NCBI RefSeq assembly: GCF_000422565.1
Contig: NZ_KE383875.1
Location: 317,742 to 381,741, forward strand
DNA length: 64,000 nt
Origin: Desulfovibrio aminophilus DSM 12254
Lineage (GTDB): Bacteria; Desulfobacterota; Desulfovibrionia; Desulfovibrionales; Desulfovibrionaceae
Direction of reading: 5' to 3'
Part shown: positions 7,694 to 24,102 of the stretch, in pieces
Layout of the letters: each line of letters starts with the position of its first letter
How positions within the stretch are numbered: position 1 is the first letter of the stretch
The notes under the pieces: generated by a model
What the model saw: only the letters and a program-made list of their open reading frames with translations
Told to the model about the DNA's origin: nothing
Database searches by the model: none
Translations under genes and position numbers: made by a program

Positions 7694-8128
7694 ATGAAGA
7701 TCCTCTCGGCCGCGCGCATGGAGCGCTGCATCGGCTGCAATTCCTGCTCCCTGGCCTGCGCCAGACTCGTGCACAAGCGCCTGTCCTGGTCCTCGGCGGG
7801 CATCCGAATCCATTCCTCGGGCGGCATCTCCACGGGCTTCCAGGCCCTGACCTGTCTGGCCTGCGATCCGCCGCCCTGCGCGGCGGCCTGCCCCACCGGA
7901 GCCTACTCCCCGCGCAAGGGCGGCGGCGTGGTGGTCAAGAAGGATCTCTGCATCCGCTGCGGGGCCTGCGTGAAGGCCTGCCCGGTGGACGCCATCGCCG
8001 AGGACTTCGAGGGCGCGCCCTACGTCTGCATCCACTGCGGCCGCTGCGTGGAGTTCTGCCCCCACGACTGCCTGGAGATGGTCGACGTCGAGGAACTCCA
8101 CGCCCGCGACAAGGAGGTGCCCGCATGA
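7694..8128 (+). CDS. 4Fe-4S ferredoxin-type electron transfer subunit (AOR partner)
   Basis: 144 residues from the ATG at 7694 after a GGAG site. Four cysteine clusters are visible: CIGCNSCSLAC near residue 11, CLACDPPPCAAACP near 57, CIRCGACVKACP near 85 and CIHCGRCVEFCP near 112, enough for about four [4Fe-4S] centres, as in HycB/DmsB-like polyferredoxins. It shares an ATGA stop/start overlap with the following aldehyde oxidoreductase gene, so the two are translated together and this protein most likely carries electrons from it. No signal peptide, so cytoplasmic. Confidence 0.88.
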   Translation: MKILSAARMERCIGCNSCSLACARLVHKRLSWSSAGIRIHSSGGISTGFQALTCLACDPPPCAAACPTGAYSPRKGGGVVVKKDLCIRCGACVKACPVDAIAEDFEGAPYVCIHCGRCVEFCPHDCLEMVDVEELHARDKEVPA

Positions 8129-9912
8129 TCCGCGACCACTTCCGCGTGCTCGTCATGGACCTGGCGGCGGGCAAGGGCAAGGTGGCCAAGATCGACGGCC
8201 GCGACGAGGTGGCCGGAGGATCGGGCCTGGCCGCCCTGCTCTTCAACCTCTACGGCCTCCCCGACCGGCCCTGGGACGATCCCGCGCAGCCCTTCATTTT
8301 GGCCATCGGCCCGCTCACCGGCTACTTCCCGCTCATGAGCAAGACCGTGGCGGCCTTCAAGTCGCCCTACCACGACCAGTACGCCGAGAGCCACGCCGGG
8401 GGCCGTTCGGCCCTGGCGCTGCGCTTCGCGGACTACGACGCCCTGGTGCTGGTGGGCCGCGCGGCGCGGCCGTCGGTGCTCGTGGTGGGCTCGCGCCGGG
8501 TGGAGCTCAGGGACGCCCAGTTCCTCTGGGGCATGGACGCCCTGAATGTGGCCAAGCGGCTGCGCCAGATGTCCGGCGGCTCCGGCCACCGGAGCATCCT
8601 GCGCATCGGCCCGGCGGGCGAGAACCGCTCGGCCCTGGCCTGCATCAACGTGGACACCTACCGCCACTTCGGCCGCCTGGGTTCGGGCACCGTGCTGGGG
8701 GCCAAGAACGTCAAGGCCGTGGCCATCCGGGGCGACGCGGACTTTCCCTTCGACCAGGGCGGCGCGGCCTGCGGCGGCGCGGTGTCCAAGGACTATCCCA
8801 AGCTCTTCAAGGAGATCCACCGCCAGCTCACGGACACCCAGATGATGAGCAAGTACCACAACCTCGGCACCGCCGGGAACGTGGCCGCGCTCAACGAACT
8901 GAAGTCCCTGCCCTGGCGCAACCTCCAGCAGACCACGGACCCAGGGGTGGAAGGCATCTCCGGCGAACGCTTCGCGGACGAGACCCTGCTGCGCAACACG
9001 GCCTGCGCGGGCTGTCCCGTGGGCTGCGTGCATATCGGCTTCGTGCGCGAGAAGTTCATGGCCGACAACCGTTGGCTCTACCGCCAGGTCTCCTACGACT
9101 ACGAGCTCATCTTCGCCGTGGGCTCCATGCTCGGCGTGACCAGCGCCTTCGACGTGCTGCGCATCGTGGACGCGGTGGAGAAGCAGGGCCTGGACGTCAT
9201 GGGCGCGGGCGTGGCCCTGGCCTGGGCCACCGAGGCCCTGGAGAAGGGCCTGCTCACGCCGGGGCAGGTGCTGGAGCCGTTGGCCTTCGGCGACGCGAAC
9301 GCCTACGCCCGGGCCGTGGAGCACCTGGGCCGGGCGGCCAACGAGTTCTACCGCGACCTGGGCCGGGGCGCACTGGTCGCTGCGGACACCTACGGCGGCG
9401 CGGACTTCGCCTGCGTCTTGGGCCAGGAGATGGCGGGCTACGCCACGGGCGAGCTCTACTTCGTGGCCCAGGCCCTGGGCTTCCGCCACTCGCACCTGGA
9501 CTCGGCGGCCTACTCCTGGGACCAGAAGCACGACGAGAAGGACGTGGACAAGGGGGTGGAGTTCCTGGTGGCCGACGAGTCCGGCCGGTCCTTCCTGACC
9601 TCCATGGTCTCCTGTCTCTTCGCCCGGGGCGTGTACAAGGACGAGCTCCTGGCCCAGGCCCTGGAGAGCGTGGGCTACACGGCCCTGGCCCGAAACATGG
9701 CCCAGGTCGGGGAGCACATCCGGCGGCTGCGCTGGCGCACCCGCTTCGCCACGGGCTTCAACCCCGAGGCCGTGCGCATCCCCAAGCGCTTCACCGAGGT
9801 GAGCACCTGGAAGGGACCGGTGGACCCGGTCTACATGGAGGCCCTGCGCCGAGCCTACGCCAAGCGCCTGCGCGAACTGGGCAAACCCCTGGAGGACGAG
9901 GCTCCGGCTTGA
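8125..9912 (+). CDS. Aldehyde:ferredoxin oxidoreductase family protein (tungsten enzyme)
   Basis: 595 residues, the usual length of AOR-family tungstopterin enzymes. The N-terminal domain binds the cofactor (GPLTGYFPLMSK and the SHAGGRSALALRFADYDALVLVG region). The iron-sulfur site is CAGCPVGC near residue 293 with a later cysteine in DFACVLGQ. AOR enzymes oxidise aldehydes to acids with ferredoxin as acceptor, or run in reverse. The polyferredoxin encoded just before it, with a 4-base overlap, suggests a two-subunit enzyme. Substrate unknown; it could belong to an AOR subfamily acting on something other than simple aldehydes. Confidence 0.9.
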   Translation: MIRDHFRVLVMDLAAGKGKVAKIDGRDEVAGGSGLAALLFNLYGLPDRPWDDPAQPFILAIGPLTGYFPLMSKTVAAFKSPYHDQYAESHAGGRSALALRFADYDALVLVGRAARPSVLVVGSRRVELRDAQFLWGMDALNVAKRLRQMSGGSGHRSILRIGPAGENRSALACINVDTYRHFGRLGSGTVLGAKNVKAVAIRGDADFPFDQGGAACGGAVSKDYPKLFKEIHRQLTDTQMMSKYHNLGTAGNVAALNELKSLPWRNLQQTTDPGVEGISGERFADETLLRNTACAGCPVGCVHIGFVREKFMADNRWLYRQVSYDYELIFAVGSMLGVTSAFDVLRIVDAVEKQGLDVMGAGVALAWATEALEKGLLTPGQVLEPLAFGDANAYARAVEHLGRAANEFYRDLGRGALVAADTYGGADFACVLGQEMAGYATGELYFVAQALGFRHSHLDSAAYSWDQKHDEKDVDKGVEFLVADESGRSFLTSMVSCLFARGVYKDELLAQALESVGYTALARNMAQVGEHIRRLRWRTRFATGFNPEAVRIPKRFTEVSTWKGPVDPVYMEALRRAYAKRLRELGKPLEDEAPA

Positions 9913-9938
9913 TTCCGCGCCGCCCCGCCACAAAGGGG

Positions 9939-9966
9939 TTGCAAAGGATCGCCGGATTCGTTAATA
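9939..9966 (+). promoter_or_regulatory. Candidate sigma-70 promoter for tRNA-Phe
   Basis: TTGCAA (9939-9944), a 16-base spacer and TTAATA (9961-9966), ending 16 bases before the tRNA. The AT content is well above the surroundings. Confidence 0.6.
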
Positions 9967-9982
9967 ACCGCTTCTCACCCGT

Positions 9983-10058
9983 GCCGAGGTAGCTCAGTTG
10001 GTAGAGCAGGGGACTGAAAATCCCCGTGTGGGCAGTTCGATTCTGTCCCTCGGCACCA
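9983..10058 (+). tRNA. tRNA-Phe (anticodon GAA)
   Basis: Complete cloverleaf: acceptor GCCGAGG pairs with CCTCGGC, the D arm reads GCTCAGTTGGTAGAGC, the anticodon stem GGGGA/TCCCC holds GAA at 10016-10018, and the T arm contains GTTCGATTC. The 3' CCA is encoded at 10056-10058. Confidence 0.98.
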
Positions 10059-10070
10059 CGGAAGACCAGA

Positions 10071-10113
10071 GCCCCAACGATTCCCGAAAAACGGACGTTG
10101 GGGTTCTTTTTTT
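10071..10113 (+). terminator. Terminator after tRNA-Phe
   Basis: CCCCAACG (10072-10079) pairs with CGTTGGGG (10096-10103), followed by TTCTTTTTTT. It closes the single-tRNA transcription unit. Confidence 0.9.
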
Positions 10114-10163
10114 GCGCGCACCATTGGGACCGGCGCGGCAGCCTGCGCGTGAACATACCATGC

Positions 10164-10192
10164 TTGAATGTTTATCGTTTCCCGTCTATCGA
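10164..10192 (+). promoter_or_regulatory. Candidate promoter of the glycerol dehydrogenase-like gene
   Basis: TTGAAT (10164-10169), a 17-base spacer and TATCGA (10187-10192) in an AT-richer stretch about 95 bases before the start codon. A TACAAT at 10230-10235 is an alternative -10 but lacks a good -35. Confidence 0.4.
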
Positions 10193-10286
10193 AAGCGAAA
10201 ATCAGGCTCGGTCGTCCTCGACTTCTCCCTACAATAGATGCGTTATGGTGAACGCCGGGGCAACGCGCGGAGTCAAAGGAAACACC

Positions 10287-11393
10287 ATGATCAGCTGCAC
10301 CTTGTTTCCTGGCCGGTACATGCAGGGGGCCGGAGCCCTGTCCCGCCTGCGCCACGAACTGGCGCGCATGGGCCGCAGGCATTTTCTCATCTGTTCGCCG
10401 ACTCCCCTGGAGCAGGTGCTGCCTCCGCTGCTGCCCGGACTGAAAACGATCGGGGACATCCGGACGGAACGTTTCGGACGTGAATGCTCGGACCAGGAAA
10501 TTCAACGGCTCACAGCGCTGGCCCGGGACTTTGGGGCCGAAGCGGTCTCCGCGGTCGGTGGCGGGAAAACCCTGGACGCCGCGAAAATGGTGGCGGCAGG
10601 GCTCGATCTCCCCGTCGCCCTGGTTCCGACCATCGCCTCAACGGATGCGCCGTGCAGTTCGGTCAGCATCATCTATTCCCCCCAGGGCGAATTCGAGCGG
10701 GTGGAAACGCTCTCCCGCAATCCCGACCTGGTTCTCGTGGATACCGAACTCATAGCGAAGGCCCCGGCCAGGTATCTTGTCGCGGGCATGGGAGACGCCC
10801 TGGCGACGTGGTTCGAGGCTGACTCCTGCCGCATCAGCCGCGCGACGACCATCGCCGGCGGCGTCTGCTCCATGACCGCGCTGACCCTGGCCCGCTCATG
10901 CTACGAGACCGTCCGGGACTGGGGCTTGGCCGCGCGCACGGCCTGCGAAGCAGGTGTGGTCACCCCGGCGCTCGAGCGTGTCGTGGAGGCCAATACGCTT
11001 CTGAGCGGCCTGGGGTTTGAAAGCGGAGGGTTGGGAGCGGCTCATGCGATGCACAACGGCCTGACCGCCCTGCCCGCCACCCATCGGCTGAACCACGGGG
11101 AAAAGGTCGCCTTCGGCGTCCTCGCCTCCCTGTTCCTGACCGACAAGCCGCTGATGCTCGTGGATGAAGTCTACACGGTGTGCGGGGAACTCGGATTGCC
11201 GACCACGCTCGCCGATCTGGGACTCGACGGAATCACGGAGCACGAATTGGCGCGCGTTGCTGAAAAGGCCTGCGCACCCGGGGAAAGCATCCACAACGAG
11301 CCCGTGGAAGTCTCTCCGGATCTGGTTCGCGCCGCCATCAAGGCTGCCGACGCGGAAGGCCGTCGCCGCAAAAAAACCGGCGCCGCGGGGTGA
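10287..11393 (+). CDS. gldA: Glycerol dehydrogenase-like iron-type alcohol dehydrogenase
   Basis: 368 residues from the ATG at 10287, preceded by AAAGGA; an open frame running further upstream enters the tRNA and is not the gene. NAD-binding motif GGGKTLDAAK near residue 95, substrate-region STDAPCSSVS, and metal ligands in GMGDALATWFEA (Asp), AAHAMHNGL (His) and LNHGEKVAFG (His), all at the spacing of GldA-type enzymes that oxidise glycerol to dihydroxyacetone. Related enzymes act on other polyols or hydroxyacids, so the substrate is not certain. A hairpin with a T run follows. Single-gene unit next to a broken regulator gene. Confidence 0.88.
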   Translation: MISCTLFPGRYMQGAGALSRLRHELARMGRRHFLICSPTPLEQVLPPLLPGLKTIGDIRTERFGRECSDQEIQRLTALARDFGAEAVSAVGGGKTLDAAKMVAAGLDLPVALVPTIASTDAPCSSVSIIYSPQGEFERVETLSRNPDLVLVDTELIAKAPARYLVAGMGDALATWFEADSCRISRATTIAGGVCSMTALTLARSCYETVRDWGLAARTACEAGVVTPALERVVEANTLLSGLGFESGGLGAAHAMHNGLTALPATHRLNHGEKVAFGVLASLFLTDKPLMLVDEVYTVCGELGLPTTLADLGLDGITEHELARVAEKACAPGESIHNEPVEVSPDLVRAAIKAADAEGRRRKKTGAAG

Positions 11394-11637: not shown

Positions 11638-12180
11638 ATGGAGGTGACCGCCATCACCAGAAAAACAGCCGGCCTGGCCGACATGCAGGCCTATATCCAA
11701 TCCCACGCCGACGTCATCTCCCACGTCACGTGCATCGACGTGGAGATCATGGACAACGACATGGTGCGCATCGCGGGCACGGGCATGCATGCGCCCGGCG
11801 TGGGCAACAGCATGGAGCAGGCTGGAGAGATCTACAAGGAGGCCATGCGGACGCACGAGACCATCCTCGAGGATTCCCCGCGCCGACACGCCATCTGCGC
11901 CCGCTGCCCGGACCGGGGGAACTGCATGGAGGGCTGTTCCCTCGCCACCCCCATCGTGGGCGGCGACACCCTGTACGGAGTCATCGGGCTGGTCTGCTTC
12001 AACGACGCCGACCGCATCCGTCGCGCCATCGCCTTGAAACCGAACAGCACCCGCGCCGCCTGGAAGGCGGTAATCCGGCATCTCCAAGATCGCGCCGAAG
12101 ATGCCGCGAAGCGGCGGTTTTCCGGCTTCCCGATACAGCGGGCGGCGAATACTCTTCGCGAAGCGGCGACACGGAAGGAG
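11638..12180 (+). pseudogene. Truncated sensor domain of a sigma-54-type regulator
   Basis: From the ATG at 11638 about 155 residues resemble the N-terminal sensory domain found on some sigma-54-dependent activators: IDVEIMDNDMVRIAGTGMH, then four cysteines in CARCPDRGNC and EGC, then PIVGGDTLYGVIGLVCF. The similarity fades after residue 155 or so, where an AAA+ domain and a Fis-type helix-turn-helix would be expected, and neither occurs. The frame stays open without a convincing end until 12537, inside the opposing binding-protein gene, which is not normal gene layout. I read this as the 5' remnant of a lost regulator; a short free-standing sensor is the alternative. Confidence 0.55.
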
Positions 12181-12183: not shown

Positions 12184-12226
12184 AAGGGTGCCCGGCGTCG
12201 CGCGGGGATGCGCGACGCCGGGCGGC
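12184..12226 (-). terminator. Terminator of the OsmC/DsrE/importer operon
   Basis: A perfect 14-base inverted repeat, GCCCGGCGTCGCGC (12190-12203) with its complement at 12210-12223, six-base loop. On the minus strand it is followed by ACCCTTTTTC. It lies about 40 bases after the last operon gene. Confidence 0.85.
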
Positions 12227-12263
12227 GGGGGATCGGATCGGGAGGATATCAGGTCCGCTCAGC

Positions 12264-13334
12264 CTACTGCAGGGGCTTCTCCGCGGCGATCTTCAGGAAC
12301 TTGTCGGTGACCAGGTCGGCCTTCTTGAACTTCTCCAGTTCGGCCGGAGAGAAACGGCCCATCTTGGTGAAGAACGTGGCGGCCTCGACCTGCCACTTGG
12401 CCATGTCGGAGGAATTCGAGCCGCTGTTCAGCTTGAGGGCCTCGTCCAGGGTCCAGCGCGGGTGCACGGCCAAGTCGTTCTTGGCGTCCGTGACGCTCAT
12501 CTTGGTGCCGCAGAAGTCACTCATGAACTTCTGGTAGGCCTTGACGATCTCGTCCGCGTTGGCCGCGACGCGCATGGCCTTGGAGGCGCGGAAGTACACG
12601 CGCAGGAACTTGGCGGTCAGCTCGGGATGCTCGTTGCACCACTTCTTGTCGCCCACCAGGACGGTGGCGGTGTTGGCCTTGGTCGTGCCGGTGGAGCCGG
12701 CCTTGACCCAGCCGCGCGATTCGCAAGTGAAGGTGAACGGCGCCCAGACCGAGGCCGCGTCGCCGATGCCCTTCTCAAAGGCGGCCACGATGGAGGACTG
12801 CTCCATGTTCGTGATCTTCACGTCGCCTTCCTTCAGGCCCAGGATCTCGAGCCACTTGCCCACGATGTAGTGGGAGGTGGTCTGCGAGGTGAGCAGGATG
12901 GTCTTGCCCTTGACCGCGTCCGGGCTGCCGTACACGTCGGGGTAGGCCGGGTTGAAGCCCTTGGTCTTGAGGATCGGGCTGTCGGCGCGGACATAGAAGG
13001 CGTTCACTTCGCTCTCGTCGATGACCGGGGCGATGAGCGAGATGTCGTAACGCATGCCGCCGATGAGGACGCCGCCGACGCCGGTGCCGCCCATGACCCA
13101 CTGCTTGGCGGGCAAGGCCTCCATCTGGGCCGGGCCGCTGCCGAAGAGCAGCATCTCGATGTCCAGACCCTCTTCCTTGTCCCAGCCCTTTTCCTTGGCG
13201 TACCAGATGTTGAACGCCTCGGAAGAGTCCATCCAGCAGGTGGGAATCTTGACCAGCTTCTGCTGGGCGAAGGCCGCCCCGGACCAGGCCAGAATGCAGA
13301 CCGCGCAGAGCGCCAGTGCCATGAACCGTCTCAT
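12264..13334 (-). CDS. NitT/TauT-type ABC transporter substrate-binding protein
   Basis: 356 residues with a signal peptide cut after AFAQ near residue 23. The fold is that of the NMT1/SsuA/TauA family of periplasmic proteins: an N-terminal lobe with KIPTCWMDSSEAFNIWYAKEKGW and the later EQSSIVAAFEKGIGDAASVWAP segment. It delivers a substrate to the importer encoded upstream. Family members bind sulfonates, nitrate, thiamine precursors or aromatic acids; the linked DsrE/OsmC genes favour a sulfur compound, but no residue seen here proves it. Last gene of the nine-gene operon, 70 bases after the second ATPase gene, with GGAGG before its ATG. Confidence 0.88.
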   Translation of the reverse strand: MRRFMALALCAVCILAWSGAAFAQQKLVKIPTCWMDSSEAFNIWYAKEKGWDKEEGLDIEMLLFGSGPAQMEALPAKQWVMGGTGVGGVLIGGMRYDISLIAPVIDESEVNAFYVRADSPILKTKGFNPAYPDVYGSPDAVKGKTILLTSQTTSHYIVGKWLEILGLKEGDVKITNMEQSSIVAAFEKGIGDAASVWAPFTFTCESRGWVKAGSTGTTKANTATVLVGDKKWCNEHPELTAKFLRVYFRASKAMRVAANADEIVKAYQKFMSDFCGTKMSVTDAKNDLAVHPRWTLDEALKLNSGSNSSDMAKWQVEAATFFTKMGRFSPAELEKFKKADLVTDKFLKIAAEKPLQ

Positions 13335-13404
13335 GCAGAACCTCCAGTCGTTTCAGTTTCCGGTTTGAGGGAACGCCTTCTCGCGCGCTCCCGTTCTTTC
13401 TCCG

Positions 13405-14184
13405 CTAGAGCGTCAATTCCTGGGCATCGGTGATCTCCTGGCGCAGGCGCAGGAACTCGATGTCCATGGGATCCCTGGGACGCGGCAGGTCCACGTCGTA
13501 GGAGGCCTTGACGCGGCCCGGGAGCTTGCCCTCCAGGGTCACGATGCGGTCGCCCAGAAGCAGGGCCTCGTCGATGTTGTTGGTCACGAAGACCATGGTG
13601 CGCTTCTCCGCCAGCCAGATGCGCTCGGTCTCCTGCTCCATGAAGAAGCGGGTCTGGGCGTCGAGCTGGCCGAAGGGCTCGTCCATGAGCATGACCTTCG
13701 GCTGGGTGGCGAAGGCGCGGGCGATGCCCACGCGCTGCTTCATGCCGCCGGAGAGCTGGTGGGGGTAGTAGGACTCGAAGCCCTTCAACCCGACCATGTT
13801 CAGGTAGTGGTCCGCGATTTCGCGGCGCTTCTCCTGGGGGACGCCGCTCATCTCCAGGCCGAGGAGCACGTTGCCGAGCACCGTCTTCCAGGGGAAGAGC
13901 ATGTAGCTCTGGAAGACCAGCCCCCGGTCGGGGCCCGGCCCGGTCATGACCTCGCCGTCCAGGAGCACGCGGCCCTCGCTGGGCGTCTCCAACCCGGCGA
14001 TCATCCGCAGGAGCGTGGTCTTGCCGCTCTGGCCCGGCCCCAGGACCACCAGGAGTTCCTCGTCGTAGACCTCCAGGGAGACCTCCCGGAGCACGGGAAC
14101 CCGCTGCGTGCCCTTCTGGATGAAGGTCTTGCTCAGGTTCTCGCAGGCGATCTTCACCCGCGGCTGTTGTTCAGTGGTGTTCAC
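13405..14184 (-). CDS. NitT/TauT-type ABC transporter ATPase (second of two)
   Basis: 259 residues from a GTG preceded by AAGGA. Walker A reads GPGQSGKTT, less usual than GPSGSGKST but keeping the essential GK(T). The signature LSGGMKQRVGIARA and Walker B VMLMDEPFG are intact, as is the LDAQTR D-loop. It energises the permease encoded just upstream. A second ATPase gene in the same operon shares the family, so the importer may be a heteromeric complex or two importers sharing one binding protein. Confidence 0.92.
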   Translation of the reverse strand: MNTTEQQPRVKIACENLSKTFIQKGTQRVPVLREVSLEVYDEELLVVLGPGQSGKTTLLRMIAGLETPSEGRVLLDGEVMTGPGPDRGLVFQSYMLFPWKTVLGNVLLGLEMSGVPQEKRREIADHYLNMVGLKGFESYYPHQLSGGMKQRVGIARAFATQPKVMLMDEPFGQLDAQTRFFMEQETERIWLAEKRTMVFVTNNIDEALLLGDRIVTLEGKLPGRVKASYDVDLPRPRDPMDIEFLRLRQEITDAQELTL

Positions 14185-14212
14185 GTCCGCTTCCTTTCCG
14201 TGGTTGGCGGGC

Positions 14213-15070
14213 CTAGAGGCCCTTGATGTCGCGCCGCCAGGGGCAGAGCTTGCGGTCCAGCCAGTCCATGGCCTGGGACAGAATCCAGGCGATGGCCGCG
14301 ATGACGACCATGCCGCCGAGGACCATGGCCGGGTCCGAGACCTTCATGCCCTGGATGATGATGTAGCCGAGGCCGGAGCGGGAACTGACCAGCTCGGCGG
14401 CCAGCACGCAGCCCCAGGCGCTCGACATGGCGATCTGGAGCCCGGCGGAGATGGCCGGCAGCGAGGCCGGAATGCAGACCTGCCGGACCTCGTCCCAGCG
14501 GCTGCCGCCCATGACCCGGACCACGTCGTAGAGTTCGGGTTCGATGAGCAGGACGCTGTTGTAGGCGTTCAGCAGGGCGGGCACGAACGAGCCGATGACG
14601 ATGATGAATATCTTCGGCGTCTCCTGAATGCCGAACCAGAGGATCGCCACGGAGATCCAGGCCAGCGGCGGCATGGGCTTGAAGATGTCCACGATCGGCT
14701 TGACCACGGCGTTGACGTAGGGATTGAGGGCCATGAGCAGGCCCAGGGGCACGCCCAGCAGGGCGGCCAGCAGGAAGCCGATGAGCACCCGCTTCAGGCT
14801 GGCCAGGATGTGGCCCCACATGGTCAGGCCCGCCAAGGTCTCGGTGAACAGCTCATGCAGCTTGTCCACGACCTGAAAGGGCGTGGCCAGGGCGCTGGAG
14901 CTGCCGAGCACTTGGCTGGCGGCGGCCCAGTGCCAGAAACCGAAGAAGGCGATCAGGGAGACGGTGTTCAGGAAGTACTCGTTGCGCAGCACTCTCCCCA
15001 GAGTGATCCGCTTGCGCTCCCCGGCGCGCAGGATGACTTCGTTGCAGACGGATTCGGCGCTGTTGCTCAT
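14213..15070 (-). CDS. NitT/TauT-type ABC transporter permease (second of two)
   Basis: 285 residues, six predicted membrane segments. The EAA-type loop ...VVRVMGGSRWDEVRQVCIPASLPAI identifies a binding-protein-dependent importer permease of the TauC/SsuC family. The cytoplasmic N-terminus is about 35 residues longer than in its neighbour. It starts three bases after the stop of the first permease, with GGAG inside the upstream gene's end, so they are tightly coupled. Confidence 0.92.
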   Translation of the reverse strand: MSNSAESVCNEVILRAGERKRITLGRVLRNEYFLNTVSLIAFFGFWHWAAASQVLGSSSALATPFQVVDKLHELFTETLAGLTMWGHILASLKRVLIGFLLAALLGVPLGLLMALNPYVNAVVKPIVDIFKPMPPLAWISVAILWFGIQETPKIFIIVIGSFVPALLNAYNSVLLIEPELYDVVRVMGGSRWDEVRQVCIPASLPAISAGLQIAMSSAWGCVLAAELVSSRSGLGYIIIQGMKVSDPAMVLGGMVVIAAIAWILSQAMDWLDRKLCPWRRDIKGL

Positions 15071-15073
15071 GGC

Positions 15074-15883
15074 TTATCTCCGAATTCCGGCCAGGAGCCT
15101 GGCCTCGATCTTGTCGATGATCACGCCGATGACAGCGCCGGCCAGCCCCACGCTGACCATGCCCAGGATCACGATGTCGGTGCGGCCGAGGTTGCGGCCC
15201 ATGGTGATGAGGAAGCCCAGGCCCTGGTCCGAGGCCAGGAGTTCCGCGCCCACCAGCGTCACCCAGCAATAGGCCAGGGCGATCTGGAGCGCCCCGAAGA
15301 CCATCGGCAGGGCCGAGGGCACGCAGATGCTGGTGAATATCTTCCAGTCCCCGGCGCCGAAGGTCCGGGCCATCTGGATATGCACCGGGTTGGTCATGCG
15401 CACGCCGATGAAGGCGTTGATGACGCAGGGCACGATGCCCGAGATCCAGATGATGAAGACCTTGCCGCCCAGGCCGATGCCGAACCAGAAGATGGTCAGC
15501 GGAATCCAGGCGATGGGCGGAATGGGCCGGATGAGCTCGAAGATGGGCCGGGCCAGGCCGCGCACGGTGGCGAACCAGCCCATGAGCAGGCCCAGGGGCA
15601 GTCCGACGACTAGGGCCAGAAGGTAGCCCAGGAAGGCCTCCTGCATGCTCACCCAGGCGTGCGTCAGCAGGGTGGCGCCATCGGGATTCACGTTGGTCAG
15701 CTTGTCGATGGCCAGCAGCACGACATCGGACGGGCGGCTGAGCAGGGTCGAGGGAATGCGCCAGTCCTCGACTCCCGGAGGCGCGACGCAGAACTCCCAG
15801 AGCAGGATGAAGGAAGCCACACTGAGCACCGGCAGGACGCGGAGCAGCAAGGGCTTGTGCACTTTCACTGTTTCATAGGCCAT
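15074..15883 (-). CDS. NitT/TauT-type ABC transporter permease (first of two)
   Basis: 269 residues with six predicted membrane segments. The coupling loop MARTFGAGDWKIFTSICVPS is visible near residue 175. GAGGAG stands 9 bases before the ATG. It is followed at once by a second, clearly related permease, so this operon encodes a permease pair that is likely a heterodimer. Confidence 0.92.
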   Translation of the reverse strand: MAYETVKVHKPLLLRVLPVLSVASFILLWEFCVAPPGVEDWRIPSTLLSRPSDVVLLAIDKLTNVNPDGATLLTHAWVSMQEAFLGYLLALVVGLPLGLLMGWFATVRGLARPIFELIRPIPPIAWIPLTIFWFGIGLGGKVFIIWISGIVPCVINAFIGVRMTNPVHIQMARTFGAGDWKIFTSICVPSALPMVFGALQIALAYCWVTLVGAELLASDQGLGFLITMGRNLGRTDIVILGMVSVGLAGAVIGVIIDKIEARLLAGIRR

Positions 15884-15921
15884 TGCGATGTTCTCCTCTC
15901 GCTCTCTTCATGGACCCGGAG

Positions 15922-16677
15922 CTACCACCAGCGGATCAACTCGGTGACGTGCCGCCTGATCTCGATGAAACGGGGGTCCAGGAAGTTGCGCGGCCTGGGC
16001 AGGTCGACCACCACCTCCGCCCGCACCTTGGTCGGCTTGGGCGTCAGCACGATGATCCTCTCGGCCACGTAGACGGCTTCCTCGATGTTGTGGGTCACGA
16101 ACAGCACAGTGCTCTTGAGGGTCTGCCAGAGCTTGACCAGCTCGTCCTCCAGGTAGAAGCGGAGCTTCACGTCGAGCTGTCCGTAGGGTTCGTCCATGAG
16201 CAGCAGATCGGGATTCACGGCGAAGGCCCGGGCCACGGCGATGCGTTGCATCATGCTGGCCGAGACTTGGTTGGGATAGAGGTCGGCGGTGTCCTCGAGC
16301 CCCACGAGGTGGAGGATGTAGTCCAGCCGCTCGGCGGCCTCCTTCTTGCCGAACTTCTTGATCTCCATGCCGTAGGCCACGTTCTGGCGCACGGTCCGCC
16401 ACGGCAGGGCCGTGGGTTCCTGGAAGACGAAGGCCAGGTTGTGCCTGGTCGGGTTGGCCACCTCGCCGTCGATGAAGATGTTGCCTTCGGTGGTTTCGGC
16501 CAGCTTGGACATGCAGTTGAGGAAGGTGGTCTTGCCGCAGCCCGTGGGCCCGACGATGCTCACCAGTTCCCCTTCCCTGATGTCGAAGTTGATCTTGTCG
16601 AGGACGAGCAGGTCCCCGAACTTCTTCGTCAGGTCGGCAACGCGGATCTTGGGTTGCCGGTCGTCACACTCAGCCAC
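15922..16677 (-). CDS. NitT/TauT-type ABC transporter ATPase (first of two)
   Basis: 251 residues from a GTG preceded by GGAGAG. Walker A GPTGCGKTT, Walker B LLLMDEPYG and D-loop LDVKLR are present. The expected LSGGM signature is replaced by the atypical VSASMMQRIAVARA, which lacks the double glycine, while the second ATPase keeps LSGGM. That suggests an asymmetric ATPase pair with one degenerate site. It sits between the DsrE-like genes and the permease pair. Confidence 0.9.
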   Translation of the reverse strand: MAECDDRQPKIRVADLTKKFGDLLVLDKINFDIREGELVSIVGPTGCGKTTFLNCMSKLAETTEGNIFIDGEVANPTRHNLAFVFQEPTALPWRTVRQNVAYGMEIKKFGKKEAAERLDYILHLVGLEDTADLYPNQVSASMMQRIAVARAFAVNPDLLLMDEPYGQLDVKLRFYLEDELVKLWQTLKSTVLFVTHNIEEAVYVAERIIVLTPKPTKVRAEVVVDLPRPRNFLDPRFIEIRRHVTELIRWW

Positions 16678-16755
16678 GTTTCTCTCCTCGAATGCTCTCG
16701 CTGCTTGTTCGCCTGGTCCGGCGATTCCCGAACCACATCGCTGGTTGCCGGGACC

Positions 16756-17091
16756 TCAGTACGCGGTGGTGGCCTCCGCGTACTGGACCATTTCGGCGGC
16801 CTCCTCGGCGTCGACGACCTCCACGCCGTCGATGAGCGCCTCGGGGGACAGCCCGCGCTCCTCAAGGCTGGTCCCGAGGGCGTGCACGCTGCCGCCCTCG
16901 GCCATGAAACGCCGGAGCATGTCCCCGGCGTAGCCGGGCAGCCCCAGGAGATTGAACACTCCGTCACCCATGCAGAGCAGGCGCACATCGAAGCCGCCGT
17001 TGGTCAGCATGGCCCAGGCGGCGCGCAGACCGAGCACCGCGGGCTCCTGCCCGGGAGCCTTGCGCACCACGACATTGACAGTGGAAAACAT
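16756..17091 (-). CDS. DsrE/DsrF-like sulfur-relay family protein
   Basis: 111 residues, a single DsrE-fold domain: an N-terminal beta strand (STVNVVVRKA), the LGLRAAWAMLTNGGFDVRLLCMGDGVFNLL core and a C-terminal EVVDAEEAAEMVQYA segment. The only cysteine is in LLCMGDG. DsrE-fold proteins pass persulfide sulfur on cysteines or serve as structural partners. GGAGG precedes the ATG and overlaps the end of the upstream dsrE-like gene. Encoded with two other DsrE/DsrH-like proteins, as in the DsrEFH/TusBCD heterohexamers. Confidence 0.8.
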   Translation of the reverse strand: MFSTVNVVVRKAPGQEPAVLGLRAAWAMLTNGGFDVRLLCMGDGVFNLLGLPGYAGDMLRRFMAEGGSVHALGTSLEERGLSPEALIDGVEVVDAEEAAEMVQYAEATTAY

Positions 17092-17101
17092 CCGGGGCCT
17101 C

Positions 17102-17500
17102 CTAGTTGCCGATGGCGAGAAGCACGTCCGTCGCCATCAGGAAACGGGTGTAGGAGTTGCCGACGTCGCCGCGCTCCACGCCGTCCAGATAGGGGCAGCC
17201 TTCGGTGCCCCGGCTGTATTCCGTGGTGTGGCAGGTGGCGATCTTGGCCCCCAGCCGGGTCAGCTCCTCGATCTTTTCCGAAAGGACGTAGCCGTCCATG
17301 TGCGCCCGCAGGGCGTCGGAGATGGCCGAGCGGCCCTCGACGGGCACGGGCTTGTTGGCCAGGTTGCAGCCGTTGCCGTAAAGGAAGAGGTTGACCTTGC
17401 CGCCCTTCTCCAGAATGGCCTTGGAGAGGTTCACGGCGAAGACCGCGTCGTCGTTTTCCGTGCTGCCGGAAAGCAATACCAGGGTGATGGTCCGCGACAT
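17102..17500 (-). CDS. DsrE family protein with four conserved-looking cysteines
   Basis: 132 residues. Starts MSRTITLVLLSGSTENDDAVFAV with the usual DsrE first strand and helix, then NLFLYGNGCNL and a cysteine-bearing IATCHTTEY segment followed by GCPYLDGVE. The cysteine in the ATCHTTEY position corresponds roughly to the active persulfide cysteine of DsrE/TusD; this alignment is by eye. It would be the sulfur-carrying member of the trio encoded here. Eleven bases separate it from the upstream dsrH-like gene. Confidence 0.82.
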   Translation of the reverse strand: MSRTITLVLLSGSTENDDAVFAVNLSKAILEKGGKVNLFLYGNGCNLANKPVPVEGRSAISDALRAHMDGYVLSEKIEELTRLGAKIATCHTTEYSRGTEGCPYLDGVERGDVGNSYTRFLMATDVLLAIGN

Positions 17501-17511
17501 GCCTTCTCCTC

Positions 17512-17793
17512 CTACAGGGCCACGAACTGGTCGTGGTCGTCCAGGATCAGCCCGGCCATGCCGGGGTAGTCCACGATCCGAACCTTGGGGTCCAGGGCCA
17601 GCCCCCGGGCCTTGACCGCGTCCTCGGCGGCGTAGAACTCCTCCACGCCCAATTCCTCGAGCCCGGGCAACATGCCCGGGAGGCCGAAGAAGACGGCGTC
17701 GCCCACCAGGAGGACGGTCTTGTCCTCGTCTCCGGCGAGCACCCGGATCTCCTCGGCGTATTCCTTGCGCATCTTGTTCAGAAGCAGCAGCAT
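17512..17793 (-). CDS. DsrH/TusB-like small protein
   Basis: 93 residues with KTVLLVGDAVFFGLPG in the centre and a short C-terminus (DYPGMAGLILDDHDQFVAL), resembling DsrH/TusB in size and fold. It has no cysteine, so if it belongs to a DsrEFH-type complex it is a structural subunit. GGAG lies 8 bases before the ATG. Positioned between OsmC and DsrE in the operon. Confidence 0.65.
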   Translation of the reverse strand: MLLLLNKMRKEYAEEIRVLAGDEDKTVLLVGDAVFFGLPGMLPGLEELGVEEFYAAEDAVKARGLALDPKVRIVDYPGMAGLILDDHDQFVAL

Positions 17794-17817
17794 GGCGATG
17801 TCTCCGCGAAGCCGGGT

Positions 17818-18252
17818 CTAGACCCGCTCGATCTCGTAGTCGAACTCCAGGCCTTCCTCCATGGAGTAGGTCACCAGGGAGCCGCGATAGAGGGCGGTCT
17901 GGATGGTGTCGAAGGCCGCCTCGTCCAGGTCCTCCGCGCTGACCTGCACCCGCAGGTCGATGTGCGTGAAGGCGGTGCGCATGGAGTCGGTCTTTTCCTT
18001 GGAGACGGTGGCCTCGGCGGTCATGCGCACGGGCTTGCCCGCCGCGCGCTTGATGTCGTTCCACAGGGAGTTGGTGTAGCAGGCGATGGCCGCGGCCACG
18101 AGAAAACGGCCGCCCATGTGCTCGTTGGCCTTCTGGTCCGGGGTCAAGGCCGAGCTGTCGTAGTTGATGACCGGCAGCGCGGCGGAGCCGGTTCCGATCT
18201 TCCACTGGGAATCACTGCCGCGTTCGAAAGTCAGGGTCATAGTCTCTGGCAT
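17818..18252 (-). CDS. OsmC family protein
   Basis: 144 residues from the ATG at 18252, the one with a 7-base spacing from GGAG; an ATG two codons earlier is too close to that site. The OsmC/Ohr fold shows in HMGGRFLVAAAIACYTNSLWNDI and in KTDSMRTAFTHIDLRVQVSAEDL. One cysteine (AIACYTNS) sits at the position of the first redox cysteine of the family; the second is absent, so classical peroxidase activity is doubtful and a sulfur-carrier or persulfide-handling role is possible. First gene of the operon, about 155 bases after a sigma-54 promoter. Confidence 0.85.
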   Translation of the reverse strand: MPETMTLTFERGSDSQWKIGTGSAALPVINYDSSALTPDQKANEHMGGRFLVAAAIACYTNSLWNDIKRAAGKPVRMTAEATVSKEKTDSMRTAFTHIDLRVQVSAEDLDEAAFDTIQTALYRGSLVTYSMEEGLEFDYEIERV

Positions 18253-18418
18253 ATGCATGCTCCGTATCAACTGATGCGAAGTCGCATCACGGTTGGCTTC
18301 TTTTTTCATCGTCGCGTCACATTGCATGGCACTCCAGGTGCGGGACGCTAACTGTGCAGACTCCACTCCTCAGATGTTGCGTACGGATCAGGCCTCTCAT
18401 CATCGTGACCGTGGTAAA

Positions 18419-18433
18419 GCAAGGCCCATGCCA
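18419..18433 (-). promoter_or_regulatory. Sigma-54 (-24/-12) promoter of the OsmC/DsrE/importer operon
   Basis: On the minus strand TGGCATGGGCCTTGC, followed by TT. It matches the consensus TGGCAC-G-N4-TTGC(A/T) except for one base, with GG and GC at the exact spacing. Transcription would start near 18407, leaving a leader of about 155 bases before osmC. Confidence 0.75.
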
Positions 18434-19113: not shown

Positions 19114-21012
19114 ATGAAGACAATGGCGAAAAAGGCGGCCGTCATAGGATTCGACTGCGCCATACCGAAACGGTTGCAGGCCCTGGTGGCCGAAGGAGCC
19201 CTGCCCAACTTCAAGAAGTTCATCGAGGACGGCAGCTACATGACCGAGGGCTACAACCTGCCCACCGTGACCCCGCCGTCCTGGGCCACCATCTGCACCG
19301 GCGCCTATCCCCGGACTCACGGCGTGGAGGACTACTATTACTACCTCGAGGGCGAGAGCCTGGAACACAAGAAGACCTGCCAGGCCTTCGGCTCCGAGAT
19401 CCTCACCGCCGAGACCATCTGGGACGCCTGGGACAAGAGGGGCAGGAAGTGCATCGTGGTCAACTATCCCATGTCCTGGCCGAGCAAGATGAGAAACGGC
19501 GTCATGGTCATGGGCGAGGGCCTCTCCCCGGCCGAAACCCGCTGGCAGCAGCTCGGCAACGGCCACAAGGAGTACCTGGCCTCCGAAAGCGTGATCTCCT
19601 CGGATTTCTACCCCATGGGCGTCCAGGCCCGCTTCGACGACGCCAAGGGCTGGGCCAATCTGCCCGCCGGGGCCGAGGAGCCCCTGGAGGCGGTCATTCC
19701 CATGACCTTCAAGGAGTCCATGGAGCCCCTCAAGGGCCAGACCTGGTACGCCCTAACCTGGGAAGGCGGCGACGACGGCTACGACCGCTTCGCCCTCTGT
19801 CCCGAGCGCGACTTCTCCAAGGCCTTCTTCACCATCGGCGCCGGCCAGTGGAGTGACGTGGTGACCCACGACTTCACCATCGCCGCCGACGGCCGCACCG
19901 AGAAGGGCACTTTCCGCTGCAAGCTCATGGAGCTTTCCGACGACGCCGAGAGCTTCCGGCTCTACATCACCGGCATCTCCGGCTTCAGCGGCTTCACCGC
20001 CCCGGCCGAGGCGGCCGACAAGCTGGCCATCTCCGACCAGGTCATCTGCAACGACATGGGCCTGGTGGCCTTCATCCACGGCGTCATCGACATGGACACC
20101 GTGGTCGAGCTGGCCCAGTTCCACTCCGACTGGCTCACGGCCGCGGCCACGTCCACGCTCAAGGCCAACCCGGACTGGGATCTCTTCTACATGCACACCC
20201 ACCTGGTGGACTGGTTCTACCACGGCTGGCTCTCGGACATGGACAGCGAGGACGCGGTCCGCCGCGAACGGGCCCTGGACATGGAGCGCCGCATCTACCA
20301 GATCGAGGACCGGCTGCTGGGCAACCTGCTCAAGGCCCTGGGCGACGACGCCCTGGTCTGTCTCTGCTCGGACCACGGCGCCACGCCCATGGGCCCGATC
20401 TTCAACACCGCCGAGGCCCTCAAGGCCGCCGGGCTGTGCCACTACGAGCCCAAAGCCTCGGAAAACTACTGGGAGATATACGAGGAGTCCGAGGGCTACA
20501 ACTACATCCTGGACGTGACCAAGTCCAAGGCCGTGCCCCAGCGCTACATGTTCGTCTACGTGAACCAGGAGGGCAAGTATCCCGGCGGCATCGTCAAGCC
20601 CGAGGATTACGAAGAGGTCCGCGACGCGATCATCGACGCCCTGCTGGACTACAAGCACCCCCAGACCGGCAAGCGGCCGGTGCTCCTGGCCGTGCGCAAG
20701 GAGGACGCCAAGGTCTTCGGCATGGGCGGGGCCCAGGCCGGCGACGTGGTCTACGCCCTCAAGCCCGAATACATGGCCGAGCATGGCTACGGCCTGCCCA
20801 CGGGCGTGTCCGGCTGCGGCGAACTGAAGAACGTGCTCATCTTCAAGGGCCCGAACGTCAAACGCAACTTCCGTTACGAGCGGCCCCGTTGGCTGGCCGA
20901 CATCGTGCCCACCCTCTGCTACATGACCGGCAATCCCATCCCGGCCGACGCCGAGGGCGGCCCCATCTACCAAATCATGGAAAACCCCGACCTGAACGGG
21001 ACCAAGGATTGA
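19114..21012 (+). CDS. Alkaline phosphatase superfamily (type I phosphodiesterase/nucleotide pyrophosphatase-like) protein
   Basis: 632 residues from the ATG at 19114 after AGGAAGAG; no signal peptide, so cytoplasmic. Visible family motifs: the first metal Asp in AVIGFDCAIP, the nucleophile region TVTPPSWATICTGAYPRTHG, DWFYHGW near residue 370 and the metal pair in SDHGATPMGP near 420. The last metal ligand region, usually G-x-H, reads SGCGELKNVLIFKGP, with cysteine where histidine is expected. It may hydrolyse a phosphodiester or act on another bound anion; the substrate cannot be read. Followed after 51 bases by a small protein resembling its own C-terminus. Confidence 0.82.
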   Translation: MKTMAKKAAVIGFDCAIPKRLQALVAEGALPNFKKFIEDGSYMTEGYNLPTVTPPSWATICTGAYPRTHGVEDYYYYLEGESLEHKKTCQAFGSEILTAETIWDAWDKRGRKCIVVNYPMSWPSKMRNGVMVMGEGLSPAETRWQQLGNGHKEYLASESVISSDFYPMGVQARFDDAKGWANLPAGAEEPLEAVIPMTFKESMEPLKGQTWYALTWEGGDDGYDRFALCPERDFSKAFFTIGAGQWSDVVTHDFTIAADGRTEKGTFRCKLMELSDDAESFRLYITGISGFSGFTAPAEAADKLAISDQVICNDMGLVAFIHGVIDMDTVVELAQFHSDWLTAAATSTLKANPDWDLFYMHTHLVDWFYHGWLSDMDSEDAVRRERALDMERRIYQIEDRLLGNLLKALGDDALVCLCSDHGATPMGPIFNTAEALKAAGLCHYEPKASENYWEIYEESEGYNYILDVTKSKAVPQRYMFVYVNQEGKYPGGIVKPEDYEEVRDAIIDALLDYKHPQTGKRPVLLAVRKEDAKVFGMGGAQAGDVVYALKPEYMAEHGYGLPTGVSGCGELKNVLIFKGPNVKRNFRYERPRWLADIVPTLCYMTGNPIPADAEGGPIYQIMENPDLNGTKD

Positions 21013-21063
21013 ACAACCAGTTCCCCGGGGCCGAGCCCCGGGGAGCGCGAAAGGAGATCCGCG

Positions 21064-21642
21064 ATGGCTGAAAAGAAAGTGATCCTGCTGCTGGCCGGAG
21101 AGGTCAGCCTGGACGGCGGCGACGCCGCGAAGAAGTTCAAGAAGAAGGCCGTGCTCGTGAACAACTACACGGCCGGGGACGTGGCCGCCGAGGCCTTGCG
21201 CGTGGCCGGCGCCGCCGCCGTGGCCCCGGAAGGCATCGCCCAGACCCTGGAGGCCGGCGCGGCCCTCTGCGTGGTCAAACTCGGCGCACCCGACGCCGCC
21301 GCCCTGGACGCGGCCCTGGCCAAGGCCCTGGAGGCCGCCGACCGCCGTACCCTGGTGGTTCTGGCCGGATCGAACCTGCTGGCCTTCCAGGGGCTCGGCG
21401 TGAACACCAAGACCGGCTCCACCGATCGTCAGGCCTTCGCCCGCGACGTGGTGCCCACCCTGGCCCACATCGCCGACCTGCCCATTCCCGACGACACCAC
21501 CGGCGCGGTGCTCTACCAGGTGCTCAAGGAAACCAACCTCAAGCTGAACGAATTCATCAAGCTCAAGGAAGCCCTGGCCCGCATGGAAACCGCGCTCCAG
21601 CGCGACAATCGCGAACCCTGGGACAAACACGACTGCGCGTGA
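21064..21642 (+). CDS. Unknown protein resembling the C-terminal end of the phosphatase-family neighbour
   Basis: 192 residues, start preceded by GGAGAT. The first 100 residues are Ala/Val-rich with alternating strands and helices and are not recognised. The second half mirrors the neighbour's tail: RDVVPTLAHIADLPIPDDTT against ADIVPTLCYMTGNPIPADAE, followed by VLYQVLKETNL against IYQIMENPDL. The end (about 30 residues) is a charged helix. The likeness suggests a duplicated terminal segment that became a separate subunit. No catalytic residues are seen, so an accessory or regulatory role is most likely. Confidence 0.6.
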   Translation: MAEKKVILLLAGEVSLDGGDAAKKFKKKAVLVNNYTAGDVAAEALRVAGAAAVAPEGIAQTLEAGAALCVVKLGAPDAAALDAALAKALEAADRRTLVVLAGSNLLAFQGLGVNTKTGSTDRQAFARDVVPTLAHIADLPIPDDTTGAVLYQVLKETNLKLNEFIKLKEALARMETALQRDNREPWDKHDCA

Positions 21643-21683
21643 TATGCTGTCACCATGAGTGAGGAGGTCGACGGTCCTCCGCC

Positions 21684-21718
21684 GGGATGGGCGAGCCCTG
21701 TGCGCGCCCATCCCTTTT
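21684..21718 (+). terminator. Terminator of the phosphatase-family operon
   Basis: A perfect GGGATGGGCG (21684-21693) / CGCCCATCCC (21705-21714) stem followed by TTTT. Its position shows that an apparent ATG start at 21687 for the next gene falls inside the terminator and should not be used. Confidence 0.75.
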
Positions 21719-21752
21719 CCGTTTCAGGAACCGACAAAACACAAGGGCATCC

Positions 21753-22622
21753 ATGGTCGCCGAACTGATCCGCCGCGTCCCGCGCAACTCGCTGGCCGCC
21801 AACCTTTTCCTGCTTACCGCCGGGGCCCTGCTCTACGTCCTCGGCTACAACGGCATCGCCGCCTCCCAGCAGTTCATCCCCGGCGGGCTCTACGGCCTGG
21901 GCGCCCTGATCCAGGACTGGACCGGGCTGCAATCCACGGCCTTCTGGTACACCCTGCTGAACATCCCGGTCTTCATCTACGCCCTGGGCGGGGTCAGCAC
22001 CCGCTTCTTCCTGCTCAACCTCTACTGCATGGCCGTCATCGCCCTACTCACGGCCTACCTGCCCGTGGACCTGGGCATCCACGACCGGCTGCACGCGGCC
22101 ATCGCCGCCGGGGCGGTCATGGGCGCGGGCAGCGGCGTGATCCTGCGCTCCAGCGGGGCCGGGGGCGGACTGGACGTCCTGGCCGTGATGCTCAACCGGC
22201 GCTACGGCCTGCGTATCGGCGTCTTCTATTTCCTGGTCAACTCCGCGCTCATGCTGGCCGCGGCGGTCCGGCTGGAGGCCGATCTGGTGGTGGCCTCCAT
22301 CGTGCTCCAGTTCGTCAGCTCCCTGGTCACGGAGTACGTGCTCTCGCTCTTCAACCAGCGCAAGGCGGTCTGGATCATCTCGCCGGAGTCCGGGCGCATC
22401 GCCAAGGCCCTGGCCGGCGAGACCAACCTGGGCTCCACCATGCTCAAGGGGCAGGGGGGATTCAGCGGCTCGGACGTGGAGCTGCTCTTCTCCATCACCG
22501 ACAACATGCACGTGAAGCGGCTCGAGGATCTCGTCTTCAGCATCGACCCCAAGGCCCTGTTCGTGGTCGAGAACACCTTCAACGTGCTCGGCGGGGCCTT
22601 CGGCGGCCGCAAGCCCCTCTGA
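21753..22622 (+). CDS. YitT family membrane protein
   Basis: 289 residues from the ATG at 21753, preceded by AAGGG; an in-frame start at 21687 lies inside a terminator. Five to six N-terminal membrane segments carry the family signature around FIPGGLYGLGALIQDWTGL and GVILRSSGAGGGLDVLAVML. The C-terminal soluble part from about residue 205 is a DUF2179 domain (STMLKGQGGFSGSDVELLFSI ... VENTFNVLGGAF). YitT proteins are conserved membrane proteins of unknown transport function. It ends eight bases from the stop of the convergent sigma-54 activator gene. Confidence 0.9.
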   Translation: MVAELIRRVPRNSLAANLFLLTAGALLYVLGYNGIAASQQFIPGGLYGLGALIQDWTGLQSTAFWYTLLNIPVFIYALGGVSTRFFLLNLYCMAVIALLTAYLPVDLGIHDRLHAAIAAGAVMGAGSGVILRSSGAGGGLDVLAVMLNRRYGLRIGVFYFLVNSALMLAAAVRLEADLVVASIVLQFVSSLVTEYVLSLFNQRKAVWIISPESGRIAKALAGETNLGSTMLKGQGGFSGSDVELLFSITDNMHVKRLEDLVFSIDPKALFVVENTFNVLGGAFGGRKPL

Positions 22623-22629
22623 GCCGGAA

Positions 22630-24087: not shown

Positions 24088-24102
24088 GGGCTTATCCTCT
24101 TC

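Follow-up and report, generated by a model that had tools for sequence, protein, structure and literature searches.

The DsrEFH type I/TusBCD and DsrEFH type II systems are built of three small Dsr-type proteins with one conserved cysteine in the DsrE subunit. Type II DsrEFH of bacteria is reported to be accompanied by tusA and yeeE/yedE (PMC13293266); DsrE and TusA are described as carrying Cys-S-thiosulfonate, and in sulfur oxidisers DsrE3A genes are linked with genes for dihydrolipoyl dehydrogenase (Lpd) and a GcvH-like lipoyl protein (PMC4175335). Two-cysteine Ohr/OsmC proteins are reported to be re-reduced by Lpd and a lipoylated protein, and replacement of either cysteine of Ohr to cause a drastic loss of activity (PMC4486171). 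In a marine bacterium sulfur limitation induces osmC, interpreted there as a peroxidase (PMC5069961). Here we analysed a stretch of 64,000 nucleotides of Desulfovibrio aminophilus DSM 12254 (contig NZ_KE383875.1, positions 317,742 to 381,741; the whole stretch is called the window), the minus strand of which carries a nine-gene operon joining an osmC-like gene and three dsr-like genes to a NitT/TauT-type importer. This operon is one arm of a larger divergent locus, whose plus-strand arm (19114-25319) lies outside the coordinates considered in the initial annotation and begins with the genes of an alkaline-phosphatase-superfamily enzyme (AP), the core of the locus, and its small partner (APc). 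This larger gene set of sulfate-reducing bacteria is apparently undescribed so far, no description of it having been found in the open-licence literature searched, as judged from titles and abstract openings.

The nine close-packed minus-strand genes of the initial annotation, from osmC to the binding protein, were borne out: all are present with intact open reading frames, and the gaps between them, in that direction, are 24, 11, 10, 78, 38, 3, 28 and 70 bp. The Dsr genes stand in the order H-E-F. Scores are above the Pfam gathering threshold for DsrH, the DsrF-like protein and the importer parts; those of OsmC (26.8, threshold 27.5) and of the middle DsrE (20.9, threshold 22.7) fall slightly short. 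The features of the locus are as follows.

12190-12223, minus strand: intrinsic terminator, 14-pair stem followed by a T run (folding z -6.9)
12264-13334, minus strand: substrate-binding protein, NMT1_2/SsuA-like and under the SsuA cut-off (Pfam, NCBIfam; relatives near taurine-type genes)
13405-14184, minus strand: NitT/TauT-type ABC ATPase 2 (Pfam, NCBIfam)
14213-15070, minus strand: NitT/TauT-type permease 2 (Pfam, NCBIfam)
15074-15883, minus strand: NitT/TauT-type permease 1 (Pfam, NCBIfam)
15922-16677, minus strand: NitT/TauT-type ABC ATPase 1 (Pfam, NCBIfam)
16756-17091, minus strand: dsrF-like gene (PF02635, 40.2 bits)
17102-17500, minus strand: dsrE-like gene, relay cysteine C90 (TCHTTEYSRG)
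17512-17793, minus strand: dsrH-like gene (PF04077, 30.1 bits, cut-off 24.4)
17818-18252, minus strand: osmC-like gene, one cysteine at the peroxidatic position and Ser at the resolving position (RGSLVTYS)
18418-18433, minus strand: sigma-54-type promoter TGGCATGGGCCTTGCT, 181 bp upstream of the osmC start
19114-21012, plus strand: AP (PF01663), with T53 as nucleophile and an Asp/His metal-ligand set
21064-21642, plus strand: APc, weakly AP-like in fold, with the invariant C-terminal tail HDCA and its penultimate cysteine C191
21747-22622, plus strand: YitT-family membrane protein with DUF2179 (Pfam scan)
22630-24129, minus strand: sigma-54-dependent activator with a PAS_3 domain (Pfam scan)
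24270-24285, plus strand: second sigma-54-like site, upstream of the EamA gene (count of such sites not above chance)
24381-25319, plus strand: EamA/DMT-type transporter, a possible exporter (Pfam scan)

The form of OsmC was observed to follow the genes beside it. Among the 59 OsmC rows compared, 7 of which have neither partner in reach, the first (peroxidatic) cysteine is kept in all 59. The resolving position is Ser in 20 of 20 copies beside DsrHEF, that of the window included, Cys in 32 of 32 beside Lpd and GcvH, and Cys in all 7 with neither. On the AP tree (70 rows, 50 of them with exactly one partner type) OsmC form tracks the partner in six of six independent pairs (p 0.031), and the partner has switched at least seven times and the transporter at least six (a quick tree, with 17 of 67 forks open). 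The OsmC form is inherited together with its partner, as one unit, because the form changes once while the cassettes swap repeatedly under AP, with all six pairs following. The lipoyl lysine of GcvH is kept in 30 of 30 copies and each redox cysteine of Lpd in 31 of 32. On the Dsr side, with 20 copies aligned per protein, C90 of DsrE (C-x6-RG) is the sole invariant cysteine, and none was found in DsrF or DsrH. C90 lies at what we take to be the canonical DsrE relay position, and it is the only cysteine so placed among the three Dsr-like proteins, as the initial annotation had stated; it is present in 20 of 20 DsrE copies. That annotation had also proposed OsmC, with its one cysteine, as a redox partner. 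The single cysteine stands, and the role of a plain redox partner has to be refined, since the window OsmC keeps the peroxidatic cysteine with Ser at the resolving position and does not have the two-cysteine arrangement of Ohr/OsmC peroxidases. A one-cysteine OsmC is unable to form such an intramolecular disulfide, which would fit hand-over to the cysteine of DsrE.

A search for AP at E 1e-20 found it in 12 of 395 sampled genomes of the phylum, and one at E 1e-60 found it in 71 of 348 class genomes. AP fragments from the class search were not taken into the mapped loci, and L010 (which shares a contig with L068) and L008 (the same stretch as L035) were excluded from the counts, leaving 72 mapped stretches; the window was additionally excluded from the recurrent-neighbour count. 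AP and APc are the most constant members of the locus, and the transporter and the OsmC partner are swapped around them. The transporter beside AP is of the BCCT, NitT/TauT ABC or TRAP type, and OsmC is accompanied by DsrHEF or by Lpd and GcvH. Among 70 AP loci, BCCT occurs with Lpd/GcvH in 23 and with DsrHEF in 13, ABC in 6 and 3, and TRAP in 1 and 2, respectively; in the remaining 22 a recognised cassette, a transporter or both are missing, partly owing to short contigs. A locus from another family of the order (L009) holds a BCCT carrier, AP, dsrHEF, osmC, APc, EamA, the activator and YitT together. In Desulfovibrio sp. DV (L010/L068) two osmC-dsrHEF cassettes surround one AP, and the same importer, at 77-89% identity, comes after the second.

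As far as can be seen, this DsrHEF subfamily is dedicated to the AP locus, because 19 of its 23 DsrE copies (from 20 of 348 class genomes) share a contig with AP and are no more than 8 kb from it, and the other four (G000:C3, G609, G712, G648) sit at contig ends. Three of these contig-end copies were re-examined. All have osmC-dsrHEF; as far as the broken contig end, two of them show APc, EamA, the activator and YitT as well, and osmC-dsrHEF is all that can be recognised in the third (L132). The genome of the window itself has a second osmC-dsrHEF cassette (G000:C3, L007), with a TRAP carrier, its own sigma-54 activator and an alkyl-sulfatase-family protein (PF14863, 128.3 bits) alongside, and a second AP gene, with fused tail, on contig C15. 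A contig break within the gene of the TRAP binding protein probably divides this second locus (G000:C15 start/G000:C3 start), L007 and L036 probably being the two ends of one locus. What we observe, then, is the locus, its conservation, the swap of cassettes and the co-variation of the cysteines. In one further stretch (L116, G713) a one-cysteine OsmC with DsrHEF and a partnerless two-cysteine OsmC lie beside the same AP.

The AP residues T53, D366, H370, D420, H421 and H557 are kept in 70 of 70 sequences and D14 is invariant in 8 aligned rows, their roles being assigned by analogy; together they provide the nucleophile and the Asp/His metal ligands of the superfamily. Right after the metal ligand D14, 61 rows have a residue, and it is a cysteine in 60 of them. 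PF01663 is the sole Pfam family matched by AP at E 0.001, and AP lies under the cut-off of every named family, including the phosphonoacetate hydrolase PhnA (TIGR02335, 26.9 bits, cut-off 407.55). At the nucleophile it has no C/S-x-P-x-R and at E 0.001 it matches no sulfatase Pfam family; the letters C/S-x-P-x-R occur somewhere in the first 200 residues in 6 of 70 AP. AP is taken to be cytoplasmic, since no signal peptide was apparent by eye.

APc ends in HDCA in 61 of 61 sequences, inside a conserved tail of the type REPW(D/E)KHDCA, which we liken, by presumed analogy, to the DsrC arm with its penultimate cysteine. Where APc is missing, the tail is fused to AP, ending in HDCA in L035, L036, L121 and L122 and in HHDCI in L123 and L124; L109 and L117 are cut contigs with APc out of view. 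No Pfam family matches APc at E 0.001. Its structure, predicted from three sequences, has a pLDDT of 64.8, with the tail below 50. A Foldseek search with this model gave no match at E 0.001 and a best E of 0.021; the top rows include arylsulfatase A, YejM, phosphoglycerate mutase, alkaline phosphatase and choline sulfatase, and also unrelated proteins such as phosphofructokinase. The model thus weakly suggests an AP-like fold.

Compared with the systems described above, the locus is distinct in several respects. From DsrEFH type I/TusBCD it differs in that its genes are ordered H-E-F and tied to OsmC and AP; it shares the relay cysteine, and its Dsr proteins lie below the NCBIfam cut-offs for TusB, TusC and TusD (36.6 against 49.2, 22 against 94.15 and 15.2 against 89.25 bits). 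The difference from DsrEFH type II is that tusA and yeeE/yedE of the window genome are on other contigs, the other DsrHEF loci being judged from recurrent neighbour families only. YeeE/YedE matches of this genome are on C5 and C24, none being on the window contig (C23) or on C3 with the second cassette; at G000:C5:227910-229237, away from the window, a YeeE/YedE-type gene is directly followed by a TusA gene. The sHdr/LbpA pathway of sulfur oxidation (DsrE3A, TusA, lipoate-binding protein, Lpd) likewise brings DsrE-like and lipoyl proteins together with Lpd (PMC4175335; PMC6067878), whereas at AP loci the DsrE-like and lipoyl cassettes are alternatives beside OsmC; no Hdr-like complex was noticed in the mapped loci. 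AP shares its superfamily, metal ligands and threonine nucleophile with NPP and phosphonoacetate hydrolases, and with choline sulfatase the superfamily and possibly a choline ester as substrate. Unlike these enzymes, it has a cysteine-tailed part, either as a separate partner or fused to it, and it has no formylglycine precursor at the nucleophile.

The importer resembles two further systems. One is the Sec-assisted organometallic (SAO) system, which also has several cysteine/selenocysteine proteins (PMC13188914): both window ATPases match SaoA best, and the permeases match SaoP best and second best. Membership of SAO was rejected on the scores, 223.1 and 232.9 against 360 for SaoA and 147.1 and 159.6 against 295 for SaoP; SaoB, SaoX, SaoL, SaoT and SaoC had no match in the ten proteins scanned, and the window locus has AP and OsmC with lipoyl or DsrHEF cassettes instead. 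The other is taurine catabolism (aminotransferase, alanine dehydrogenase, sulfoacetaldehyde acetyltransferase Xsc), which has the same importer architecture; it differs in that no Xsc or aminotransferase was seen among the window proteins scanned, AP, APc, OsmC and DsrHEF being there instead.

The gene set has the make-up of a NitT/TauT importer: the binding protein scores 50.8 bits with NMT1_2 (cut-off 24.7) and the BPD_transp_1 and ABC_tran domains pass, the binding protein remaining under the curated cut-offs of SsuA (89.5 against 163.5) and TauA (56.2 against 304.25). ATPase 1 recurs at 82-83% identity beside OsmC with Lpd/GcvH, not DsrHEF, in six loci (L028, L029, L030, L102, L104, L105). 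Relatives of the binding protein with 30-49% identity were found in 10 other genomes of 99 searched, of which the AP list holds only G713, and those of L138-L140 are 44-46% identical to that of the window. In L138 and L139 the same set of two ATPases, two permeases and a binding protein adjoins Xsc (TIGR03457, 778 and 776 bits, cut-off 676.4); alanine dehydrogenase is over its cut-off in L138, and a SarD-like enzyme in L140 is under its cut-off. Because the importer adjoins Xsc in these two loci, an organosulfur substrate is likely.

The initial annotation had proposed that the operon imports an organosulfur compound and hands its sulfur to a carrier. On organosulfur import it was probably right, and it was right about the single relay cysteine. 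That the importer and the DsrE/OsmC genes form one dedicated unit was not supported, the modules being swapped: of the AP loci with DsrHEF, 15 have a BCCT or TRAP carrier and 3 have an ABC importer. Conservation of the importer apart from DsrE/OsmC, named beforehand as speaking against that proposal, was found in part, in the six loci with Lpd/GcvH and in the 10 genomes of which one is on the AP list. The unit, the core enzyme and the role of OsmC differ from what had been proposed.

Three lines point to a small zwitterion with a positive nitrogen and a sulfo group as the substrate, namely BCCT together with choline trimethylamine (TMA)-lyase CutC, the importer relatives with Xsc, and the alkyl-sulfatase-family protein, which is present in the TRAP-type clusters L007 and L008. 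CutC (TIGR04394 over the cut-off) is present in 46 of the 71 genomes with AP and in 20 of the other 277 (Fisher p 1e-23). It lies within 30 kb of AP in 19 genomes, distances being computed from pairs on a shared contig only; one of these, G596, has an operon matching that of the window. Choline-O-sulfate would fit all three lines. PMC4215793 treats choline and mentions no OsmC, taurine, isethionate, phosphodiesterase or betaine. Near AP, microcompartment shell proteins were seen in 11 mapped loci (e.g. L030, L069, L104), RnfC-like genes in five and an acetaldehyde-dehydrogenase-like gene in L030; these genes probably belong to the cut cluster.

With regard to transcription, the terminator of the initial annotation stands, with its 14-pair stem and z of -6.9. 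The sigma-54 site is present, scored against a consensus that we take to be the standard one; sites with one mismatch number 2 in the 64 kb, against a chance expectation of 1.99, and therefore TGGCATGGGCCTTGCT alone proves nothing. Both of these sites precede genes of this locus. Support comes from a set of 128 upstream stretches, taken before osmC or AP in the window and in related loci: 36 of them contain a site matching at 9 or more of 11 positions, whereas base shuffles gave 3.3; coming from related loci, these stretches are non-independent. A sigma-70-type promoter was looked for in the operon region and none was found.

From these observations we infer the substrate, the AP reaction and every transfer step. 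We hypothesise, with a little less than even confidence, that the operon serves as the arm for import and relay in a modular locus that handles a small zwitterionic organosulfur compound. This compound would bear a positive nitrogen and a sulfo group and would most likely be a sulfate ester of the choline-O-sulfate type; AP would move its sulfo group to a cysteine, from where OsmC would pass it to DsrE or lipoyl-GcvH. Judging from the site and the gene, sigma-54 and the PAS activator would switch on at least the osmC operon. The compound would enter via the NitT/TauT importer here, and via the BCCT or TRAP carriers seen elsewhere. AP, which the initial annotation did not cover, is probably the enzyme that releases the sulfur group: in the cytoplasm, with its threonine nucleophile and two metals, it would take the sulfo group off the alcohol. 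Instead of water, the acceptor of the group would be the penultimate cysteine of the APc tail; this tail may act as a DsrC-like swinging arm and give Cys-S-SO3-. The single cysteine of OsmC would take the group from this tail. In the window genome OsmC has no resolving cysteine, and we propose that the group therefore passes to the DsrE cysteine of DsrHEF, towards sulfite/thiosulfate reduction. In the sister loci the two-cysteine OsmC may be re-reduced by lipoyl-GcvH and Lpd, with release of sulfite. The energetic sense would be the conversion of a sulfate ester to sulfite, sparing the ATP cost of activating free sulfate.

A number of findings weigh against this hypothesis. Most of the solved or named AP relatives are phospho- and phosphono-hydrolases (NPP, phosphonoacetate hydrolase, PafA), NPP and phosphonoacetate hydrolase being the nearest solved ones; sulfatases appear only at weak E-values, and the nucleophile position is T in 70 of 70 AP rather than the formylglycine precursor of sulfatases. 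Distant AP homologues (L033, L034, L127; 28-34% identical) have no tail. The AP structure predicted from two sequences has a mean pLDDT of 30.3 and was not used, and therefore no geometry backs the tail reaching the active site. On the OsmC tree the Dsr-linked copies form one clade with a single change, so that this is one linked cassette and not many independent events. No OsmC match was found in 15 mapped stretches, ten shorter than 15 kb and five (L032, L082, L093, L100, L127) of at least 15 kb. The TusA genes of the window genome are on C2 and C5, none being on C23. The association of CutC with AP ignores kinship; 25 of 71 AP genomes are without CutC, which was not found in the window's own genome either. 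Upstream of the window AP gene, the best sigma-54 site found in a scan has 5 of 11 matches.

A different explanation, the use of choline phospho-esters, we consider doubtful though it has to be taken seriously. The BCCT and ABC carriers would import phosphocholine, glycerophosphocholine or a trimethylammonium phosphonate, and an NPP/PhnA-like AP would free choline for CutC, and phosphate, with OsmC and Lpd/GcvH or DsrHEF as an attached thiol repair. It draws on the match of AP to PF01663 and, weakly, to PhnA and NPP1, and on the enrichment of CutC in AP genomes and its closeness to AP. However, it leaves the invariant tail cysteine, the swap of OsmC partners and the DsrHEF cassette without a job, and the Xsc beside the importer relatives, the SsuA-like binding protein and the alkyl-sulfatase-family gene of the second cluster also speak against it.

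The version of the initial annotation, an organosulfonate related to taurine which is imported and cleaved elsewhere, with sulfur passing to DsrEFH as persulfide and OsmC as thiol partner, appears improbable to us. The importer family and the DsrE relay cysteine would suit it, but among those window proteins that were scanned no enzyme cleaving C-S bonds could be recognised, the constant member is AP, and 15 of the 18 DsrHEF-linked AP loci with a recognised carrier have another one. Even less credible, and in our view very improbable, is that OsmC is a hydroperoxide peroxidase in a stress-linked nutrient operon, with DsrHEF serving only thiolation or repair. The near-threshold match to the OsmC family and the re-reduction of Ohr/OsmC by Lpd and lipoyl proteins (PMC4486171) agree with such a role; the resolving cysteine is, however, absent from 20 of 20 DsrHEF-linked OsmC, and Ohr loses its activity drastically when either cysteine is lost (PMC4486171).

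Some observations were made at the borders of the locus and of its distribution. Just past the operon terminator the plus strand carries genes for a ferredoxin-like protein, an aldehyde:ferredoxin oxidoreductase and an iron-containing alcohol dehydrogenase (7694-11393), and for a small GAF-like cysteine-rich protein (CARCPDRGNCMEGC; 11638-12147), the end of which faces the terminator and whose GAF matches are weak. In L033 and L034 (G179, G207) the distant AP homologues adjoin TctC-type binding proteins, and L034 also has an OsmC-like reading frame, judged by eye; this suggests that the link of AP and OsmC may predate the class.

Returning to transfer of the sulfo group to cysteine, its boldest form, which we regard as unlikely as it stands, would be a thiol-dependent sulfate-ester reductase. 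An AP-type enzyme would load a swinging C-terminal cysteine, and OsmC with DsrHEF or lipoyl-GcvH/Lpd would yield sulfite or a protein-bound thiosulfonate, an electron acceptor gained without ATP-consuming activation of sulfate. If this is true, sulfate reducers could use sulfate esters as respiratory sulfur without prior ATP outlay, DsrHEF and lipoyl-GcvH/Lpd would be interchangeable discharge systems of one thiol carrier, and the AP partner with its cysteine tail would represent an arm of the DsrC kind in a protein unrelated to DsrC. The link with choline TMA-lyase bears on the diet of the Desulfovibrionales. Even with another substrate, the dependence of the OsmC Cys/Ser position on its partner, together with the penultimate cysteine, gives a handle on the roles of OsmC and GcvH-like proteins in anaerobic sulfur metabolism.

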